Source: Bdellovibrio sp. 22V
Lineage (GTDB): Bacteria > Bdellovibrionota > Bdellovibrionia > Bdellovibrionales > Bdellovibrionaceae
Reading direction: 5' to 3'
DNA: 64,000 bases
NCBI RefSeq assembly: GCF_030169785.1
Contig: NZ_CP125854.1
Coordinates: 434,001 to 498,000 of the forward strand
Part shown: one piece after another, positions 8,489-42,497 of the stretch
Numbering within the stretch: position 1 is the first letter of the stretch
Layout of the letters: every line of letters starts with the position of its first letter
Notes under the pieces: generated by a model
What the model was told of the DNA's origin: nothing
Databases searched by the model: none
What the model saw: the letters and a program-made list of their open reading frames with translations, nothing else
Made by a program: the position numbers and the translations under genes

Positions 8489-8570
8489 TATCCCAGTCTT
8501 CGGACCAGTGTCCCTAGACCCTCCCTATTCACACTGCTAGAATGGGGGCTTGTTAAAGGAGCCCCCACCA

Positions 8571-11243
8571 GTGTTAAAAAAGATCGTACTGTCTATTGTC
8601 GCCCTCGGCCTTATTGGCATTCTCAGTCTCTACTTAATTGTTAAGTCAGTTCAATCCGGCCTTCCGCAATTGATCACTGTGAAAGACTATCAGCCATTGC
8701 TTGTAAGTCAGGTGTATGACCGACACGGTAAAAAGATCGGTGAATTCTTTCGTGAGCGCAGAACACTTGTTCCTTACGACAAAATTCCAAAGAACTTAGT
8801 GAACTCATTCCTTGCTGCCGAAGACGACCAGTTCTTTGAGCATAAAGGCATCAATCCTCAAGCAATTTTCCGTGCCGCTCTTGCCAACCTTCGTGCTGGT
8901 CGTTCTGTTCAAGGGGGATCGACGATCACGCAACAGGTGGCAAAAACACTTTTACTTTCGTCTGAAAAAACGCTGACACGTAAACTGCGTGACATCCTTT
9001 TGGCCATTGAAATGGAAAAGAACTTAAGCAAAGAAGACATTCTTTTCCTTTATTTGAACCAAATTTACTTCGGGCAAGGCGCTTATGGTGTTGAGCAGGC
9101 GGCGCAAACATATTTCCGTAAACCTGTCAGTAAGTTGGAACTTCCAGAGATGGCGATTCTTGCCGGCCTTCCTCAGGCTCCGAGCAAATACTCTCCCGTA
9201 CGTAATCCTTTAAGAGCGAAAGAAAGACAAATTTACGTTCTTCGTCGTATGGCTGACGTGGGTTACATTTCCAAAGATGAAGCAGAAAAAGCGATCAAAG
9301 AACCTGTGAAAGTCTATGTTCGTGAGAACTATGAAGAGTTCGCTCCGTTTTTCCTAGAAACGGTTCGTCAGCTTCTTGTCGTGCAATTGGGTGAGGACAT
9401 GGTTCTTGATAAGGGACTTCGCATTCACACAAGTCTTGATCTCAAAAAGCAGCTTGCCGCACAAGAATCCGTGATGGCAGGTTTAAAATCCTTGGATAAA
9501 CGCCAAGGCTACCGTGGTCCTTTGAAAAATCTCTCTGATGAAGATGCGATCACAGAGTTCCTAAAAGAAACGCAAAAGAAATTGATCTCCGACTTCACAC
9601 CGGAAAGAACGATTCTTCCGGATGGAACTTTCGCTGATATCGTTCCGGTTAAAAACCCAAAAGATACTAAAGAACATCCGTTGCTTCCTCCCTACATCAA
9701 GCTGAACGACACCGTTCAAGCTGTCGTTCAAAATGTTGATGATGGCTTGGGACTTGTTTTCGTAACTTTGCCAGACGCGCAGGGTTTGATTGACATAGAG
9801 ACAATGACTTGGGCGCGCAAGCCCGACACGGAAGTGCGCTACGATTTGGGTCAGATTAAGAAACCTTCAGAGGCTTTGAAAAAAGGCGACGTGATTCTTG
9901 TAAAAATCACGGCCGACAAATTTGAATCAAGCCGTTTGCAAAATTCTAAAAAGAAAACTCCCAATCAGGCTCTCCCTGACTTTGCGAAATATTTAGCTTT
10001 GGAATTGGATCAAGAACCGCAAGTCGAAGGGGCTTTGATTTCATTCGACCAGACATCTCAAGATGTGGTGGCGATGGTGGGTGGTTCTAGCTTTGCGAAA
10101 AGCGAATTCAATCGCGCTATTCAAGCTCCTCGTCAAACGGGCTCCGCATTTAAGGCCATTGTTTACGCTTCGGCCTTGGATAAAGGTTATACGCCGGCAA
10201 CTCCAATCATGGACGCTCCTATCGTTTACGAAGAAGGCGGTGCCGCTGACGATTCTGAAGGACAAGGCGATCCAAAAGTTTGGAAACCATCCAATCACTC
10301 GAAAAGCTTTGGTGGGGATATTCTTTTCCGCAATGCTTTGGTGAAATCTCTTAATATCCCAACTGTAAAAATCATCGAAGACGTCGGCGTGCCTTGGGCG
10401 ATGGATTATGCAAAACGCCTGGGTATCTACAGTCCTCTGAATCCTGATTTTACATTGGCTCTTGGCTCCAGCAGCGTGACTTTGTATGAGATGACAAAAG
10501 TCTTTGCAGAGTTCGGCCGCCTTGGAAAAAGAATTTCTCCGCTGCTGATCCACAAAGTGGAAGATGCTCAAGGCAAAAATCTTTTGCAAACAATGACATT
10601 GGACACACGTTTTGAAAAAGAAATCAAAACGGCGGCTGATGACTTCGAACAACGTCGCAAGGCTTATTTGGAAGTCGCTGGCGACCCTGCAAAGCTCGAA
10701 GAGTTTAAAAAGAACAATAAGAATGCAAAACTCGACGAAAGCATTTTCTTCCAGGATCCAGAGCAATTGATTCGTCCAACAACCGCTTATGTGATGACGA
10801 CATTGTTAAAAGGCGTTGTTGAAGATGCCGGGGGTACTGGCGGACGAGCACGCGCTGTTGGCCGTGAAGTCGCTGGTAAAACCGGATCTACAAACAACTA
10901 CTTTGACGCGTGGTTTATTGGTTACAGCCCGCAAATCGCAACAGGTGTTTGGGTGGGATTCGACAAAGAAAAGAGTATCGGTAAGGGCGAAGTCGGTGGA
11001 CGTGCGGCGTTACCTATCTGGGTGGACTATATGAAAGCCGCTCACGACGGACTGCCTCAGATGACTTTCCCTGTGCCTGACGGTATCGTGTTTGCTAATA
11101 TTGATAGCGAAACTGGAAAGCTTGCTTCCGCTTCAACAAAGAAAATTATTCGCCAAGCTTTCGTCGAAGGAACAGAACCAACGGCTGCGGCTAATAAAGC
11201 TGAAGAAGCCACAGACTTTTACAAACAGGATCTCTCTGAATGA
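8571..11243 (+). CDS. mrcA: Class A penicillin-binding protein 1A (transglycosylase/transpeptidase)
   Basis: 890 residues from the GTG at 8571, chosen because AAAGGAG (8555-8561) is correctly spaced; the TTG at 8550 lies upstream of that site. It has one N-terminal membrane anchor, then a GT51 glycosyltransferase domain (EDDQFFEHKGI, QGGSTITQQVAK, LNQIYFGQGAYG), an intermediate OB-like region, and a transpeptidase domain with GSAFK (SxxK), LGSSSVT (SxN-like) and KTGSTNN (KTG). It polymerises and cross-links peptidoglycan at the inner membrane's outer face. The C-terminal tail is short. It overlaps uvrA by 4 bp (ATGA), so the two are coupled. Confidence 0.96.
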   Translation: MLKKIVLSIVALGLIGILSLYLIVKSVQSGLPQLITVKDYQPLLVSQVYDRHGKKIGEFFRERRTLVPYDKIPKNLVNSFLAAEDDQFFEHKGINPQAIFRAALANLRAGRSVQGGSTITQQVAKTLLLSSEKTLTRKLRDILLAIEMEKNLSKEDILFLYLNQIYFGQGAYGVEQAAQTYFRKPVSKLELPEMAILAGLPQAPSKYSPVRNPLRAKERQIYVLRRMADVGYISKDEAEKAIKEPVKVYVRENYEEFAPFFLETVRQLLVVQLGEDMVLDKGLRIHTSLDLKKQLAAQESVMAGLKSLDKRQGYRGPLKNLSDEDAITEFLKETQKKLISDFTPERTILPDGTFADIVPVKNPKDTKEHPLLPPYIKLNDTVQAVVQNVDDGLGLVFVTLPDAQGLIDIETMTWARKPDTEVRYDLGQIKKPSEALKKGDVILVKITADKFESSRLQNSKKKTPNQALPDFAKYLALELDQEPQVEGALISFDQTSQDVVAMVGGSSFAKSEFNRAIQAPRQTGSAFKAIVYASALDKGYTPATPIMDAPIVYEEGGAADDSEGQGDPKVWKPSNHSKSFGGDILFRNALVKSLNIPTVKIIEDVGVPWAMDYAKRLGIYSPLNPDFTLALGSSSVTLYEMTKVFAEFGRLGKRISPLLIHKVEDAQGKNLLQTMTLDTRFEKEIKTAADDFEQRRKAYLEVAGDPAKLEEFKKNNKNAKLDESIFFQDPEQLIRPTTAYVMTTLLKGVVEDAGGTGGRARAVGREVAGKTGSTNNYFDAWFIGYSPQIATGVWVGFDKEKSIGKGEVGGRAALPIWVDYMKAAHDGLPQMTFPVPDGIVFANIDSETGKLASASTKKIIRQAFVEGTEPTAAANKAEEATDFYKQDLSE

Positions 11244-14191
11244 AAGATATTCACCTCTGGGGGGTGAAACAAAACAATTTGAAGAATATTGAGGTGAAGA
11301 TTCCCGTCGGATCTATGACGGTGATCTGCGGCCCCAGTGGATCAGGGAAGTCCTCCTTGGCCTTCGAGACTCTTTTTGCCGAAGGCCAGCGACGTTTCAT
11401 CGAAAGCATGTCGAACTATGCTCGACAGTTTTTGAATAAAGCGCCGAAGCCTGACATTGAGGGTATCAATAATATTCCTCCGGCGATTTCTATCGAGCAA
11501 AAGAACACGGTGAAAAGTTCTCGCTCTACCGTCGGAACGACGACAGAGATCATTGATTACTTGCGCCTGCTTTTTGAAAAGATTGGGAAGTCCTATTGCC
11601 CGACTCATCATTGTCCGACGGAAAAAGAGAGTGTCACTGAAGCCACTGACAAAGTGATAAAAAATTTCACCGGTAAACGTGGCTACATTCTTGTCGAAAT
11701 CACGGAAGCGGGCCGAGTGGCGCAAGCCAAGAAACTTCATTCTTTGCTTCTCCAAGACGGTTATCTTCGTATTTACGTTCCTAAGATTGCTGAAAGCAAA
11801 CCTGCGACCGCAGCAAAAGCAGCGACTAAAAAAGCAAGCGCAAAGAAAGTTTCCAAAAAAACAACCGAAGTGAAAATTCCCGAGCCTGTCATCGTCAATG
11901 GTGGCGTGACTTTGGAAGAGATGGGAACTGTTCTTGAGATCGGTGACGCTGCCGCCATCAAAAAGGGTCTTCCGAAAGAAACTTTCTATCTTGTTATCGA
12001 TCGTATGAGCTTTAATGAAGATGAGCGTGGTCGTATCGCTGATTCACTGACTCAGGCTTATGAAGCCAGCATTAAGTACAATACAAATTTAATCACTCGT
12101 CGTGCAACAATTCTGACAACTGAAGGACAGCGCCTGCAGGTCAGCGAAGAAGCCTCTTGTCCAGTGTGTGGCTACACGCCGCCGCCTTTGACTTCGCGAT
12201 TGTTCAGTTTCAACTCTCCGATCGGCGCTTGCCCTACTTGCAAAGGTTTCGGCAATATCCTTGATATCGACGAAGAGAAAGTTATTCCAAATCCCAACAT
12301 GTCTTTAGCACAAGGGGCTTTGAGTCCTTTCTGGATGCCGAGTGCCGCGCACGAGAAAAAACAACTTCTCGCATTCTGTAAAAAAGCGAAGATCGATGTG
12401 CACTCGCCATGGAATGAGTTGCCGAAAGATCAACGCGACGTTATCTGGAACGGTAATAAAGAGTTCTTCGGCGTGCGTGGTCTTTTTGAATACTTGGATC
12501 AAATAAAATATAAGATGCACGTTCGCGTCTTTATTTCGCGTTTCCGCAGTCCTTTCCAATGTCCTACATGTAAAGGGGCACGTCTGCGTGAAGAGGCAAA
12601 TCACGTGCTTATTGGAAATTCCAATATCAATGATCTTTCAACGGTCACGATTGAGGATCTGCATCAGTTCTTCCAAAAGCTTGAAGTGTCACCTCATCAA
12701 GAAGAAGTAGCTGGTGAAGTTTTAAAACAAATTCGCTCACGCTTAGAGTTCCTTATGCGTGTTGGAGTTCATTATCTGTCTTTGAGTCGTGAAACTCGCA
12801 CTCTTTCGGGTGGTGAATATCAGCGTTTGATTCTTGCGAATCAACTGGGCATGGGACTTTCGCAAGCCCTTTATGTTCTTGATGAGCCCACCGTAGGTTT
12901 GCATCCTCGCGACAACGATCGTTTGATTTCCATTCTGAAAGATCTGAAGGAACTCGGAAATACGTTGGTTATTGTGGAACACGATCACGACGTCATTAAA
13001 GCCAGCGAACACATTATCGAAATGGGTCCCGGATCTGGATATCTTGGTGGAGAAGTCGTTTACGCAGGCGCCACCGATGAATTCTATGACTACGAGAAAT
13101 CCAATACCGTCCCTTACTTAAAACCCAACAAGAGCGTCGCGGCTTTAAGAACGATTCGTCCTGTTGATGTGGACTCTTATAAGGTAAAAATCGAATTGAA
13201 GGGCGCTAAAGGCCACAACCTTAAAAACCTGGATGTCGTTTTCCCCCTGAATCGGATTGTAACGGTCACGGGTGTCAGTGGATCGGGAAAATCTACTCTG
13301 ATTTCGAAGACTCTGTATCCGGCTTTAGCTCGAGCGCTGGATTTGGAATACTTACCGTCGCAAGAATACGCCGCTCTTGAAGGTGTCGAGCATATTAAGA
13401 ACGTGCTTTTGATTGACCAGTCTCCGATTGGTAAGTCCGCGCGCAGTTCGCCTGTAACTTATCTTAAAGCCTTCGATGCCATTCGTACGATCATGGCCGG
13501 CACTCAGGAAGCACAAGCCCGCGGTTATACTCCAGGCACGTTCAGCTTGAACGTCGATGGTGGACGCTGTCCTGCTTGTAAAGGCACCGGCTATGAAGAA
13601 ATCGATATGATGTTCATGGATAACGTTGTTATTCCTTGTGACGTCTGCGATGGAAAGAAATACCGCCCTGAGATTTTAGAAATCCAATATAAAAATAAAA
13701 ACGTTCACGAAATCCTTTCGATGACTGTGAACGAAGCGATGAATTTCTTCGTCGCTCATCCGAATATTCGCAAACCTTTAAGCGTTCTTAAAGAAGTTGG
13801 TTTGGATTATTTGCAACTGGGACAACCCGCGAACTCTTTAAGCGGAGGCGAATCGCAGCGCTTAAAGATCGCGAAAGAACTTTCACAAGTACAGCAGAAG
13901 TCCACGTTGTATATCCTTGATGAGCCGACGACAGGCCTGCATTTCCGCGAGGTCGATCTATTGATGAAGGTCCTCAATAAATTGATTGAGACCGGCGGCA
14001 GCGTCGTCGTCGTAGAACACAATCTCGATGTTATTCGCGCCTCTGATTATATTATTGACCTAGGCCCGGAAGCGGGTAAAAAAGGCGGAAATATTGTCGC
14101 CCAAGGATCCCCGGAAGATATTATGAAGGTGAAAAAGAGCCTCACGGGGCAGTATTTAAAACGCTATATCGACGGTCAGAAAAGTCCGTAA
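11240..14191 (+). CDS. uvrA: Excinuclease ABC subunit UvrA
   Basis: 983 residues with the two-ABC layout of UvrA: Walker A GPSGSGKSS (about 31-39) and GVSGSGKST, signatures LSGGEYQR and LSGGESQR, and the zinc modules CPVC...CPTC and CPAC...CDVC. It scans DNA for lesions with UvrB and starts nucleotide excision repair. It is ~40 residues longer than the common ~940. The extra length includes a Lys/Ala-rich insert at about residues 187-212 (AAKAATKKASAKKVSKK). It is translationally coupled to the PBP1A gene upstream and lies 15 bp before the MsbA-type exporter, a mixed operon. Confidence 0.97.
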   Translation: MKDIHLWGVKQNNLKNIEVKIPVGSMTVICGPSGSGKSSLAFETLFAEGQRRFIESMSNYARQFLNKAPKPDIEGINNIPPAISIEQKNTVKSSRSTVGTTTEIIDYLRLLFEKIGKSYCPTHHCPTEKESVTEATDKVIKNFTGKRGYILVEITEAGRVAQAKKLHSLLLQDGYLRIYVPKIAESKPATAAKAATKKASAKKVSKKTTEVKIPEPVIVNGGVTLEEMGTVLEIGDAAAIKKGLPKETFYLVIDRMSFNEDERGRIADSLTQAYEASIKYNTNLITRRATILTTEGQRLQVSEEASCPVCGYTPPPLTSRLFSFNSPIGACPTCKGFGNILDIDEEKVIPNPNMSLAQGALSPFWMPSAAHEKKQLLAFCKKAKIDVHSPWNELPKDQRDVIWNGNKEFFGVRGLFEYLDQIKYKMHVRVFISRFRSPFQCPTCKGARLREEANHVLIGNSNINDLSTVTIEDLHQFFQKLEVSPHQEEVAGEVLKQIRSRLEFLMRVGVHYLSLSRETRTLSGGEYQRLILANQLGMGLSQALYVLDEPTVGLHPRDNDRLISILKDLKELGNTLVIVEHDHDVIKASEHIIEMGPGSGYLGGEVVYAGATDEFYDYEKSNTVPYLKPNKSVAALRTIRPVDVDSYKVKIELKGAKGHNLKNLDVVFPLNRIVTVTGVSGSGKSTLISKTLYPALARALDLEYLPSQEYAALEGVEHIKNVLLIDQSPIGKSARSSPVTYLKAFDAIRTIMAGTQEAQARGYTPGTFSLNVDGGRCPACKGTGYEEIDMMFMDNVVIPCDVCDGKKYRPEILEIQYKNKNVHEILSMTVNEAMNFFVAHPNIRKPLSVLKEVGLDYLQLGQPANSLSGGESQRLKIAKELSQVQQKSTLYILDEPTTGLHFREVDLLMKVLNKLIETGGSVVVVEHNLDVIRASDYIIDLGPEAGKKGGNIVAQGSPEDIMKVKKSLTGQYLKRYIDGQKSP

Positions 14192-37685: not shown

Positions 37686-37740
37686 GTTTTACTCTCTTTG
37701 ACGCTTGCAAAGGCCCTCTGTTTTGAGGGAATGTATTTGC

Positions 37741-38880
37741 ATGGCTCATATCTATGATTACGCAATTATTGGAAGTGGTTTAACCGGTCTCAGCATCGCG
37801 GCAGCTTTGAGCCGTGAGACAGACAACATCGCGCTTATCGAAGCGTCTGATGTGGCATTTGGTGCAAACAAAAAAGTAAATTTCCCAACAGGCCCGATCA
37901 ATAACGGTCTTCGTTTTGTACCTGACTCCGTGCTTGCGGAAAAAGCCATGCGCTTTCTTGAAAATCTTTTGAATACAAAAGTCGTCGCTGATGTCAGCGA
38001 GGAAGCCCCGATTACTTACGATTCCGGAACTTTCAAAACGTTTTTGGGCTTCGGCGACACGCCGCCTGCTTTCTATGAAGAGCTTTCTTACTTCACATCA
38101 AGCAAACGTATCGATTTAGCTTTGGAGCCGCATCAGTGGACTCAGCTTTTGTTTGAACAATTCAAAGGCGATTTCATGCCTCGTTCTTACGTGACGAAGT
38201 TCCATCAAGAGGGCGAAAAGGTTTCGCACATCACGATCAACGGTTCTAAAACGTTGCATGCGCAAAATTTTATTTTCGCCGGCACTGTGAAGGACTTGGG
38301 TGTCTTGCTTCCGGAAGACGCGATCTCTATCCGCGCTCGCACGAAGCTTTCTAAAAATACTTATTGGACGGCGTTGTGCTTGGACATCTGTCACTCGAAA
38401 ATGGTGACGGAGTCAACGGCAATGCACGTTCTTAATGGAACAACTCAAGACGAGATCGGCCCTTGCGCCGGCCGCTTCTTGCCAGCAGTTGAAGTCGATG
38501 GCCAGCCGATGCAGGCGTCTCAATGGATGACATTCATTGAACAAGAAGTGACTGAAGACAGCGAAGTTGTCGGAATGGCGCTAAAGAAAATCAAGCGTCA
38601 GATCAAGCGCGCCTACCCTGAAGCTCTGGATAATCTGAAGCTTGAAAGAATTTTCGTTGCTCCGATTATTGCGGGTAACGGTGATATCAAGTTAAGTGCA
38701 AATCTCACAATGCCAGAGTTGGAAAATCTTTGGATTGCTTCATCAACAGTAAATGAACAAAAAAATCTTGTCGGCGCTCTTTTGCAAGCAGAAATGATCG
38801 TCGCGTCTCTTGGGTTTAAAGTTCAAGAACAAGAAGTGAGTGCTCCTCAAGAAGAGGCGCAGCACGAAGCTGCTCTCTAA
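37741..38880 (+). CDS. FAD-dependent oxidoreductase, unknown substrate
   Basis: 379 residues from the ATG at 37741 (GAGGGAATG upstream; the frame runs back to 37705). The dinucleotide-binding motif YAIIGSGLTGLSIAAALSRE is at the N-terminus, followed by an acidic residue (ALIEAS) for FAD ribose. The C-terminal part (IAGNGDIKLSANLTMPELENLWIASST...) resembles the second FAD-contact region of DAO/amine-oxidase-like flavoproteins. A tail of Glu/Gln residues closes it. The substrate is unknown. A perfect 11-bp inverted repeat follows at 38890. Confidence 0.8.
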   Translation: MAHIYDYAIIGSGLTGLSIAAALSRETDNIALIEASDVAFGANKKVNFPTGPINNGLRFVPDSVLAEKAMRFLENLLNTKVVADVSEEAPITYDSGTFKTFLGFGDTPPAFYEELSYFTSSKRIDLALEPHQWTQLLFEQFKGDFMPRSYVTKFHQEGEKVSHITINGSKTLHAQNFIFAGTVKDLGVLLPEDAISIRARTKLSKNTYWTALCLDICHSKMVTESTAMHVLNGTTQDEIGPCAGRFLPAVEVDGQPMQASQWMTFIEQEVTEDSEVVGMALKKIKRQIKRAYPEALDNLKLERIFVAPIIAGNGDIKLSANLTMPELENLWIASSTVNEQKNLVGALLQAEMIVASLGFKVQEQEVSAPQEEAQHEAAL

Positions 38881-38995: not shown

Positions 38996-39073
38996 TCCCC
39001 TGTTCCACTAGATTCTATGCGTTCCGGAGAGTTCGGCCTGACTTTTGATATTAAGAGGGTCAGGAGGTCTCCC

Positions 39074-41152
39074 ATGAGAGTCCTTTTTAGAATTTCTGTC
39101 TCATTTTTTATCAGTTTGTTTTTCGCGTCTCTCGCGTTTGCGCAGAAGACTTTGATCCTCTATTCCTCTATTGGAATGGGGCACCTGAGCGCTTCACGGG
39201 CGATTGAAGAAAAAATCAAAGCCCAGAATCCGCAGGCGGAAGTGGAGCTTAAAAACATTCGTGATTTCATGCCTTCAATGAGCCGTACTATTGATGAAAA
39301 GATGTATTGGTTTGTCTTTAAAAAAATGCCGCAAACTTTTTCGAATGCGTATTTAAGTTCGATGCAAAAAGGTATGCAAGTTCGTGATCTCAGCGATATT
39401 AAAACAGGATACAACGAAACGGCGTTGCTCGATTATATTCGTAAATCCGGCGCGGAGACAGTGATCGCCACTCACTATGGCTCAGCTATCAATCTTGGAA
39501 ATCTAAAGTCTTCTGGCAAACTTCCCGGCATTAAAACGGCGTGGGTGCACACGGACTATATTGAACATTATTTCCCGCGCATCTCGCAGCGTTTGGATAA
39601 AACATTCGTTGGCCACAATGAATTGGCGAATTCGTGGAAAGAGTTCGGTGTTAAAGCTGAAAAAGTGGAAGTCACAGGCATTCCTGTCAGAAATCTCCCC
39701 GAGCCCGGCGAAGTGCAACGGGGCGCTGTTCTTGAAGCCGTTGGTTTAAAAGCAGAACCTGTGACATTCGTGATGTCAGGAGGCTCAGAAGGTTTGCGTG
39801 ACTATCCGACGGCCGTGAAATCACTTGCACAACAGTTTAAAGATCCCATTCAAATCGTTGCAGTTTGCGGAAAGAATGAAAAAGCGCGCAGCGAATTGGA
39901 AAAATTGGCGGCAACACTTCCGCCGCATGTAACGCTGAAACCTCTTGGCTTTATTCCGAACAAGCAACTTATTGATCTTATTTCCGTGGCGGATCTTTAC
40001 GTCACGAAGTCAGGCGGTCTTTCACCGACGGAGGGTGCACTTTTGATGAAGCCTCTTGTGTTGATCAATGAGTACGGCGGACACGAAGCAGAAAATGCAG
40101 AGTTTTTCAAAAAAACAAAGATGGCAGAAATCGTGAACTCTTCCGCGGAGCTTGGCGGAAAAGCCGTGTCCGTCTTAGCAAATCCGGAACTGATGAAACA
40201 AATGATGGAGCATCAGCGTGAATACCGTAACTCTGTCAACCTAGACTACATCGCGAACTGGACACTCAACGATAAAGCACAAGAGACCGTACGCATTGAC
40301 CTGGGACTTAAGGAAGGCGCCATGGTCGAGGGCACAACAGAAGCTCTTGCAAAGCTTTCGCGCGACTTCCCTGGTGATGTCGAAGTTTTGCTAAGTTACC
40401 CAAAATCCAAAACCGGCACTTACTTTGGCGACGGAAAAGAATCGAATCCATTCGGCCACATCGCCATTCGCGTCGGTGAAAACGTCTACACGATCAATCA
40501 CATGGCAGAGCGTGGCAGTGAACCGCACATCGTTCACAAATCCAGCTTAGCTGAATACCTTTACTCGACAAAAACTTATTATCGCAATGAAGAGTTCACA
40601 GGCATGCAAGGTCAAGCCTACGCCAAAGACACCTTGGCTGTGCGCCTTGATGGTCTTTCCAACGAGGCTATCAAAAACATGCTCAATGAAATTGCGACCA
40701 TCGACCGCGACTGGAAAGAGGGACGTCTTAATTATGTGGCGAAAACGTGCAACTGCGCGGATGTGACGTTGAGAGTTCTTAAAGCAGGTGGCGTTGTGGT
40801 TGACGGTAAAATCTTTAAGCGTTCGATTAAGATGCCATTGGATGTTTTCGATGCTGTCGTAAAGGCGGCGGAAAACAGACCTGACTTGCAAAGCTCTCTG
40901 ATTCACTATGGTTACGTGAAGAGTTCAAAGAATGAATTCAAAACAGCGGGCTTCCCTTTGAGTCTTTATCAAATTAAACGCGCCATCGTGAATATGTTTA
41001 AAAAAGGCCGCGACAAAATCGAAACACGCATCAACGCGCGTTTGACGGTGAATAAAGATTCGTCTGAATTGAGTTACGAAAAAACGAAAACTGTGCAAAA
41101 GACAGCACCGAAAGGCGCCGTCGGCATGCGCTGCGAAGCTGTCTTTAATTAA
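39074..41152 (+). CDS. Exported MGDG-synthase-like glycosyltransferase fused to a permuted papain-like (NlpC/LRAT-type) domain
   Basis: 692 residues from the ATG at 39074 with AGGAGG 6 bp upstream. Residues 1-23 are a signal peptide ending AFAQ. Residues ~24-405 are a GT28/MGDG-synthase-like glycosyltransferase: ILYSSIGMGHLSASRAIEE is the family's opening motif, with IATHYGSA and CGKNEKARSELEK later and the donor-site region KSGGLSPTEGALLMKPLV. Residues ~420-600 form a separate domain with FGHIAIRV (His462) and, ~100 residues later, CNCADVTL (Cys559/Cys561). This His-then-Cys order is that of circularly permuted papain-like hydrolases/acyltransferases. The C-terminal tail is Lys-rich. Family members of the first domain normally act inside the cell, so the signal peptide is unexpected. 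Confidence 0.82.
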   Translation: MRVLFRISVSFFISLFFASLAFAQKTLILYSSIGMGHLSASRAIEEKIKAQNPQAEVELKNIRDFMPSMSRTIDEKMYWFVFKKMPQTFSNAYLSSMQKGMQVRDLSDIKTGYNETALLDYIRKSGAETVIATHYGSAINLGNLKSSGKLPGIKTAWVHTDYIEHYFPRISQRLDKTFVGHNELANSWKEFGVKAEKVEVTGIPVRNLPEPGEVQRGAVLEAVGLKAEPVTFVMSGGSEGLRDYPTAVKSLAQQFKDPIQIVAVCGKNEKARSELEKLAATLPPHVTLKPLGFIPNKQLIDLISVADLYVTKSGGLSPTEGALLMKPLVLINEYGGHEAENAEFFKKTKMAEIVNSSAELGGKAVSVLANPELMKQMMEHQREYRNSVNLDYIANWTLNDKAQETVRIDLGLKEGAMVEGTTEALAKLSRDFPGDVEVLLSYPKSKTGTYFGDGKESNPFGHIAIRVGENVYTINHMAERGSEPHIVHKSSLAEYLYSTKTYYRNEEFTGMQGQAYAKDTLAVRLDGLSNEAIKNMLNEIATIDRDWKEGRLNYVAKTCNCADVTLRVLKAGGVVVDGKIFKRSIKMPLDVFDAVVKAAENRPDLQSSLIHYGYVKSSKNEFKTAGFPLSLYQIKRAIVNMFKKGRDKIETRINARLTVNKDSSELSYEKTKTVQKTAPKGAVGMRCEAVFN

Positions 41153-42497
41153 CCTCTTCAAGAGGAAGGGAGAAGGAGAACGTCGTTCCTTCTCCCACTT
41201 TGCTGTCCACGGAAATCTGCCCGCCCATAAGCTCCACAAGATTTTTTGAAATCATCAAACCTAAACCGGAGCCTCCGTACTTGCGTGAAACCGAAGCGTC
41301 TTCTTGATAGAAGCTGCGGAAAAGCTTTTTGATGTTGTCGTAGTGAATGCCTTTACCGGTGTCTTGGACGTGCCACCGGTACGTTTGCGTTTTGATATCT
41401 TTACGAACAGCAATTCGCACTTTGCCTTTTTCTGTAAACTTGACGGCATTACCGACTAGATTCGTGAGCACTTGGCGCAAGCGGTGCGAATCCCCCATGG
41501 CGTGACGAGGAATTTCTTCGTCCATTTCCAGCTCCAACTCCAAACCTTTTTCCTGACATTTCACCGAAAACATTTTGTGAATGTCTGAATGAAGCTCTTT
41601 GAAATCAAAACGATGACGGTCAATTTGCAAAAGGCCGTTTTCAATTTTTGAAATATCGAGAATATCATTAATCAGATGAAGCAACGAATCCGAACAACGA
41701 TGAATCGTTCCTACGTACTCCGTCTGTTCCTCATCGAGTTTCGTGTCGCGAAGAATGTCGGAAAAGCCGATGATACTGTTAAGCGGAGTACGAATCTCAT
41801 GGCTCATGTTACTAAGGAAACTGGATTTCAACGATGACAGACGAAGAGCATCTTCGCGCGCTGACATCAGCTCATACTTGGAATAAGCCATGTCTTTGAG
41901 TTCTTCCCGGATCCGTCCAATTCCCAGAATTAAAATAATATCTTCGAAAGCCACCCACAGGGCGTGCTCCACCCAACGCCATTCCATCCCGACACCTTCA
42001 CCATAAACGGTCATCGGCAAAAGAATCCCGCGCAAAGCATGGTCGATAATCACGATCAGAGAAGCCAAAAGTAAAATAGAGATGTCTTTATAGAAGGCCA
42101 AGGCGGCCAAAGAAACGAAGACATGGAAATGCGTTTCGATCCTCCCCCCTGTTAAATATATAAGGAGGATCGAGAAGCACATCTGTGCGACGGAGATCAC
42201 AACACGGGTGATTTTTTGACCAGGAAGAATCAAGGCACAATATAAGGAAGGAAGGGCGAAAAGGCCGCCAAAGATGACACCAACCAGAGCGTTTTCCAAA
42301 GAGCCACTAAACTGCCCTAGCCAGGTCCCGGGAGTTATATAAATTCCCAAGAGTACACACGCAACCCATTGAATTATCATGAGAAAAGCAAAACCGCGAT
42401 CCATACGCACGCAGATTTCGTGCGCCTGTTGCTGGAAAATTTTTTCCACTTCAGGGTGGTTCCGAGCTTGGTTTTGTTTCATTTCCCTACTCATCAA
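41145..42497 (-). CDS. Membrane sensor histidine kinase
   Basis: 450 residues. After ~30 polar residues come about six membrane helices (roughly 35-200) forming an uncharacterised integral-membrane sensor. HisKA follows with the phospho-acceptor in FLSNMSHEIRTPLNSIIGF, then HATPase_c with NLVGNAVKFTEKG (N box), DTGKGI (G1) and GSGLGLMISKNLVELMGG (G2). There is no receiver or PAS domain in the protein and no response regulator gene next to it, so it is probably an orphan. The start is uncertain among ATGs at 42497, 42494 and 42482. It overlaps the convergent fusion gene by 8 bp. Confidence 0.9.
   Translation of the reverse strand: MMSREMKQNQARNHPEVEKIFQQQAHEICVRMDRGFAFLMIIQWVACVLLGIYITPGTWLGQFSGSLENALVGVIFGGLFALPSLYCALILPGQKITRVVISVAQMCFSILLIYLTGGRIETHFHVFVSLAALAFYKDISILLLASLIVIIDHALRGILLPMTVYGEGVGMEWRWVEHALWVAFEDIILILGIGRIREELKDMAYSKYELMSAREDALRLSSLKSSFLSNMSHEIRTPLNSIIGFSDILRDTKLDEEQTEYVGTIHRCSDSLLHLINDILDISKIENGLLQIDRHRFDFKELHSDIHKMFSVKCQEKGLELELEMDEEIPRHAMGDSHRLRQVLTNLVGNAVKFTEKGKVRIAVRKDIKTQTYRWHVQDTGKGIHYDNIKKLFRSFYQEDASVSRKYGGSGLGLMISKNLVELMGGQISVDSKVGEGTTFSFSLPLEEVN

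Follow-up and report, generated by a model that had tools for sequence, protein, structure and literature searches.

Glycosyltransferases that depend on nucleotide sugars are normally expected in the cytoplasm, which is where their donors occur; a signal peptide on such an enzyme raises the question of where it works and on what. This arrangement is found in Bdellovibrio sp. 22V, in a stretch of 64,000 nucleotides (NZ_CP125854.1, positions 434,001 to 498,000; hereafter the window), where a single open reading frame joins a signal peptide, a glycosyltransferase (GT) and a permuted thiol-enzyme domain. We propose, with a probability of about 0.6, that the product is an exported bifunctional glycolipid enzyme, in which sugar transfer is combined with acyl hydrolysis or acyl transfer.

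A sequence-only reading of this DNA had given the frame an ideal ribosome site. The frame is real and the site stands: the frame is conserved over its whole length, at 76% in a second genome from the genus and at 35–43% in some 30 distant contigs, and AGGAGG lies six bases ahead of the ATG. An alternative in-frame ATG at 39017 lacks a ribosome site and was ruled out, and the opposite strand of the gene offers just short or interrupted frames. The first 23 residues (MRVLFRISVSFFISLFFASLAFA, followed by Q) read directly as a signal peptide with a charged n-region, a hydrophobic core and the AFA-Q site that had been proposed earlier, and export signals recur in all aligned relatives from Bdellovibrionota. 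The charges around this N-terminal helix place the enzyme outside the cytoplasm, in contrast to what a cytoplasm-facing anchor would do. On these features (charge pattern, hydrophobic core and cleavage motif), which underlie all our export calls, the window enzyme is predicted to cross the inner membrane.

Table 1. Positions of the features of the fusion gene, counted from the first letter of the window.
Feature	Position	Strand	Basis or remark
Fusion ORF, 692 aa	39074-41152	+	sequence kept full-length in relatives
Shine-Dalgarno AGGAGG	39062..39067	+	6 nt 5' of ATG 39074; direct reading
Sec signal peptide, residues 1-23 (AFA-Q)	39074..39142	+	n/h/c regions read directly
GT-B domain (MGD1/UgtP, GT28), residues 24-405	39143..40288	+	PF06925, PF04101, NF010135; VIA match 4x1t
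Predicted permuted NlpC/P60-type thiol domain, residues ~415-645	40316..41008	+	model, VIA and hhalign
His462 codon (NPFGHIAIR)	40457..40459	+	30/31 relatives; strand start in model
Asn475 codon, candidate third catalytic residue	40496..40498	+	31/31 relatives
Cys561 codon (NCAD), candidate nucleophile	40754..40756	+	30/31 relatives; helix start in model
C-terminal tail and stop	41009..41152	+	place where long relatives carry helical region and PlsC-like domain

The N-terminal domain resembles MGDG synthase and UgtP, as had been suggested. Its match to PF06925 (MGDG synthase; Pfam) scores 53.6 bits against a gathering cut-off of 25 (E 3.7e-14), and superposition of the AlphaFold model of the window protein (pLDDT 87) on MGD1-UDP (4x1t) gave a VIA Z of 31.6 and an rmsd of 2.7 over 309 aligned residues. 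The superposition aligns residue 24 with MGD1 142 and thereby sets His37, which is conserved among the relatives, on MGD1 His155, the catalytic base (PMC7419546); His37 can be taken as its equivalent. With the plant enzyme MGD1 and the Bacillus diglucosyl-DAG synthase UgtP the domain shares the GT-B fold over its whole length, the catalytic His in GxGH and the donor-side motifs GGxxPxE and HExxN; it differs from both in its signal peptide and its fused thiol domain. The UgtP equivalog NF010135 is matched at 130 bits, far below its cut-off of 500, and judged by these scores the domain is a relative of UgtP, not UgtP itself.

The C-terminal domain has no match in Pfam or NCBIfam, and Foldseek alone gave a marginal result (E 4e-3). 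Modelled on its own (pLDDT 78, pTM 0.81), it was matched by VIA to TseH (Z 12.0, 148 aligned, 4.0 Å), YiiX (Z 10.6), the B. cereus enzyme 3kw0 (10.1) and a RID domain (8.9). All of these are permuted thiol enzymes, and a permuted papain-like fold is predicted here. Structure prediction, which the sequence-only reading had proposed as a check, thereby returned MGD1 for the first domain and permuted NlpC/P60 folds (Z 10–12) for the second, with a conserved His and Cys within residues 420–600, where that reading had expected a permuted NlpC/LRAT-type active site. The canonical NlpC/P60 order of Cys before His is not found, as His462 precedes Cys561; these two residues are lost together (to Gln and Ser) in one copy out of 31 relatives. 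That reading had placed His462 before Cys559/561: the order, His462 and Cys561 hold, and Cys559 does not, its position being C, N, D, F or S in relatives. Because Cys561 is conserved while position 559 varies, Cys561 is the candidate nucleophile. His476 was likewise ruled out as the third conserved polar residue, position 476 being variable (H, Y, G, K).

With the permuted NlpC/P60 lipid enzymes YiiX, TseH, Tox-Act1 and LRAT the window domain shares the fold, a His before the Cys and a Cys that starts a helix, and from all of them it differs in being fused to a glycosyltransferase. LRAT proper has a His-His-Cys triad; in the fusion relatives, by contrast, the third place is held by the invariant Asn475, and the second His is not conserved. 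The permuted NlpC/P60 enzymes are a lipid-acting group, and the toxicity of Tox-Act1 requires its His and Cys (PMC12994826).

A possible further likeness is to Lnb_N/DUF4105, the lipoprotein N-acyltransferase of Bacteroides. Pfam gives no match to PF13387 (Lnb_N/DUF4105) in the window protein at E up to 1. Alignment by hhalign to Lnb_N proteins of the same phylum scored 37.6 (P 6e-5) at a probability of only 65%, against 16.5 for the best of 40 shuffled controls and 12.4 for the reversed control. The profile alignment brings the His residues and the NC motifs of the two into line, and the pattern GH...R...Y-x5-NC...P is in register, with the same His-Cys order and spacing; the window protein differs in lacking the Lnb-like remainder and in its fusion to the GT. 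Two genuine Lnb_N (DUF4105) proteins are encoded in the same genome outside the window (G000:C1:1054327-1054788 and 1190711-1191229).

A contig scan with the single window protein as query found no relatives; an alignment-based search found the GT-thiol fusion in 29 contigs from many phyla, making it more widespread and better supported than could be known from the window alone. Named isolates of Herbaspirillum, Hydrogenophaga and Pseudoxanthomonas carry it, as do two conjugative Polaromonas plasmids; certain MAG labels among the contigs (for example, Methanomethylovorans) may reflect misbinning. Each of the 11 members aligned from Bdellovibrionota carries an export signal, in one case with a lipobox-like LSFAAAAGC. 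Copies from outside this phylum either start shortly before the GT domain or carry a single transmembrane segment followed by RRRHR, a topology of the betaproteobacterial forms that puts the GT in the cytoplasm. The exported and non-exported sets (compared leaving aside L042, a 5'-truncated fragment) are split by one branch with support of 100/100, in a tree that is unrooted for the direction of change. Export is thus predicted to be specific to Bdellovibrionota. Most of the family is predicted to be cytoplasmic and comes from bacteria that are not predators (Polaromonas, Hydrogenophaga, Synergistota and others), so that the core chemistry is not an invention of predation.

Most members from Bdellovibrionota reach a length of about 1200 aa, with an extra helical region plus a PlsC-like domain, for which PF01553 reaches its cut-off in one contig (L021). 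As a third domain of the long relatives it resembles PlsC-type acyltransferases, from which it differs in its His-Asp spacing (H-x5-D, not H-x4-D); the window copy and those of G005 and G028 lack it. One genome, G087, carries two head-to-head fusion copies (L053 4293-7907, minus strand, and 8524-12141, plus strand). In copy A all GT residues checked are intact, and His462, Cys561 and the first PlsC His are lost; in copy B the thiol and PlsC residues are intact, and GT residues 37, 64, 237, 239 and 337 are changed. This complementary decay suggests that the activities are separable and both needed, and the joint loss or retention points to the thiol and PlsC domains as partners in the handling of acyl groups.

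The genes found around the fusion point towards lipids. On the Polaromonas plasmids (L051 4354-18918; L052) it lies in a tight co-directional operon in the order TetR, DUF883, DUF6781, AarF/UbiB, fusion, patatin-like phospholipase, polyprenyl synthetase and RND efflux, an arrangement suggestive of a cassette for membrane remodelling and efflux. Its neighbours in Bdellovibrionota include neutral-ceramidase-like, GH1 and Lnb_N-like proteins, with an Lnb_N gene just downstream of the G028 relative. Exported proteins with a GHIAL motif also recur beside the fusion (L056 9914-11080, L005 12788-14128 and L053 12143-13348, all on the minus strand), two of the three being weakly Lnb_N-like.

We then compared 141 genomes of the order, 10 with the fusion and 131 without (among the latter G104, whose thiol-profile match was marginal, E 0.0097). 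Ceramidase is present in 7/10 fusion genomes versus 4/131 others (Fisher 1.9e-7; by genus P 1.7e-3) and UDPGP in 6/10 versus 3/131 (Fisher 1.7e-6), the per-genome Fisher values overstating independence because the genomes of genus g6 are related. Fusion-bearing Bdellovibrionota genomes are also enriched for exported GH1. The UDPGP-like proteins of fusion genomes have a signal-like N-terminus in six cases out of six, those of two fusion-less genomes lack one, and the co-occurring ceramidase and GH1 proteins also begin with signal-like sequences. Of the PF01704 profile, the exported UDPGP-like proteins match only the C-terminal part; upstream of this match, all four proteins inspected have a glycine loop, AGTGS or AGTGT. 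Such exported UDP-sugar-pyrophosphorylase-like proteins (L005 7004-8965, minus strand; L091; L095-L099) occupy an unexpected site for nucleotide-sugar synthesis. The UDPGP-like gene of G059 is divergent from its fusion gene. L055:1765-3852 shows no similarity and was ruled out as a second UDPGP.

In the window the fusion gene is flanked by genes for an FAD oxidoreductase (37705-38880, upstream) and a histidine kinase (41145-42497, downstream). In 15 further genomes from this genus the two genes are direct neighbours, and the fusion stands between them only in the window's genome; it is present in 2 of 24 genus genomes, and the G005 copy sits elsewhere. From the empty site and this second location we conclude that the window fusion is an accessory, mobile gene. 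Its nearness to rpsB/tsf, seen also in L036, was judged coincidental, as the orientation differs. Searches of the window's genome gave no match for UDPGP or ceramidase and only a weak one for GH1.

The core enzyme is best explained as a mobile enzyme that remodels membrane lipids. The Sec signal peptide would carry it across the inner membrane, where the MGD1/UgtP-like domain, with His37 as base, would transfer sugar from a UDP-sugar to a diacylglycerol- or ceramide-like acceptor; next, or separately, the permuted NlpC/P60 domain would cleave or transfer a lipid acyl chain by way of a thioester on Cys561, together with His462 and Asn475. The identities of the lipid and the sugar, the choice between hydrolysis and transfer, and the site of action (own envelope or prey) are inferred. 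A lipid role is favoured by the predicted PlsC domain of the long forms, by the operon with patatin and polyprenyl synthetase and by the ceramidase and GH1 neighbours. Against the proposal as a whole, a UDP-sugar enzyme is placed outside the cytoplasm although the window's own genome offers no evident donor, and the window protein itself has no PlsC domain, nor are its neighbours lipid enzymes. The Bdellovibrionota form would work outside the cytoplasm, and these bacteria may thus build or modify sugar-lipids in a place where the donor should not exist. In many genomes an exported UDPGP-like protein could supply it there, as an alternative to prey nucleotide sugars; for the window copy, prey UDP-sugars are a reasonable conjecture. 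It is possible, although on balance doubtful, that in some Bdellovibrionota a whole glycolipid module has moved out of the cytoplasm, in which exported UDPGP would make the donor for the exported transferase and the thiol, PlsC, ceramidase and GH1 activities would edit the product. Such a module would amount to nucleotide-sugar-dependent glycosylation beyond the producer's own cytoplasm, most plausibly inside another cell that holds UTP and sugar phosphates.

A sub-case of this explanation concerns the place of action, namely that the enzyme is a predation effector, secreted into prey to remodel or disrupt membranes with the prey's own UDP-sugars and lipids. It would solve the donor problem for the window's genome, and it accords with the restriction of export signals to Bdellovibrionota, with the accessory, mobile distribution and with the existence of permuted NlpC/P60 phospholipase effectors (PMC12994826). 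However, most members of the genus, which presumably prey alike, lack the fusion, and the exported UDPGP of related genomes is another donor source; we hold this version only tentatively. The N-terminal segment could instead anchor a cytoplasmic enzyme that makes glycolipids for the cell itself at their usual site, where the UDP-sugar donor is available and where most of the family, including the betaproteobacterial forms, appears to reside. This is improbable, since the charge precedes the helix and AFA-Q follows it, an orientation in which even an uncleaved segment places the enzyme outside; the pattern is common to all aligned Bdellovibrionota copies, including the one with a lipobox, and the co-occurring UDPGP, ceramidase and GH1 proteins start likewise. 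Least likely is a cell-wall enzyme, a MurG-like GT with an NlpC/P60 peptidase exported to act on prey or own murein: GT28 includes MurG, and an endopeptidase role was the first proposal made for TseH (discussed in PMC12994826), but MurG matches the GT model clearly less well than MGD1 does (Z 25.8 versus 31.6), the thiol domain is of the permuted kind, whose members act on lipids (PMC12994826), and the cytoplasmic members, the fused PlsC and the neighbouring genes for patatin, polyprenyl synthetase and ceramidase speak for lipids.

With a family that differs in compartment by lineage and an exported donor-making enzyme in several genomes, the question whether predatory bacteria carry out nucleotide-sugar chemistry in prey becomes testable. 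In the literature consulted we found no papers on MGDG synthase in Bdellovibrio, on GT-DUF4105 fusions or on exported Bdellovibrio nucleotide-sugar enzymes, and the fusion family appears undescribed, although a 2003 survey of NlpC/P60 proteins may mention it. The analysis defines an unannotated fusion of a GT with a lipid-type thiol enzyme that is found on conjugative plasmids, where the gene is annotated as an LPS N-acetylglucosamine transferase.
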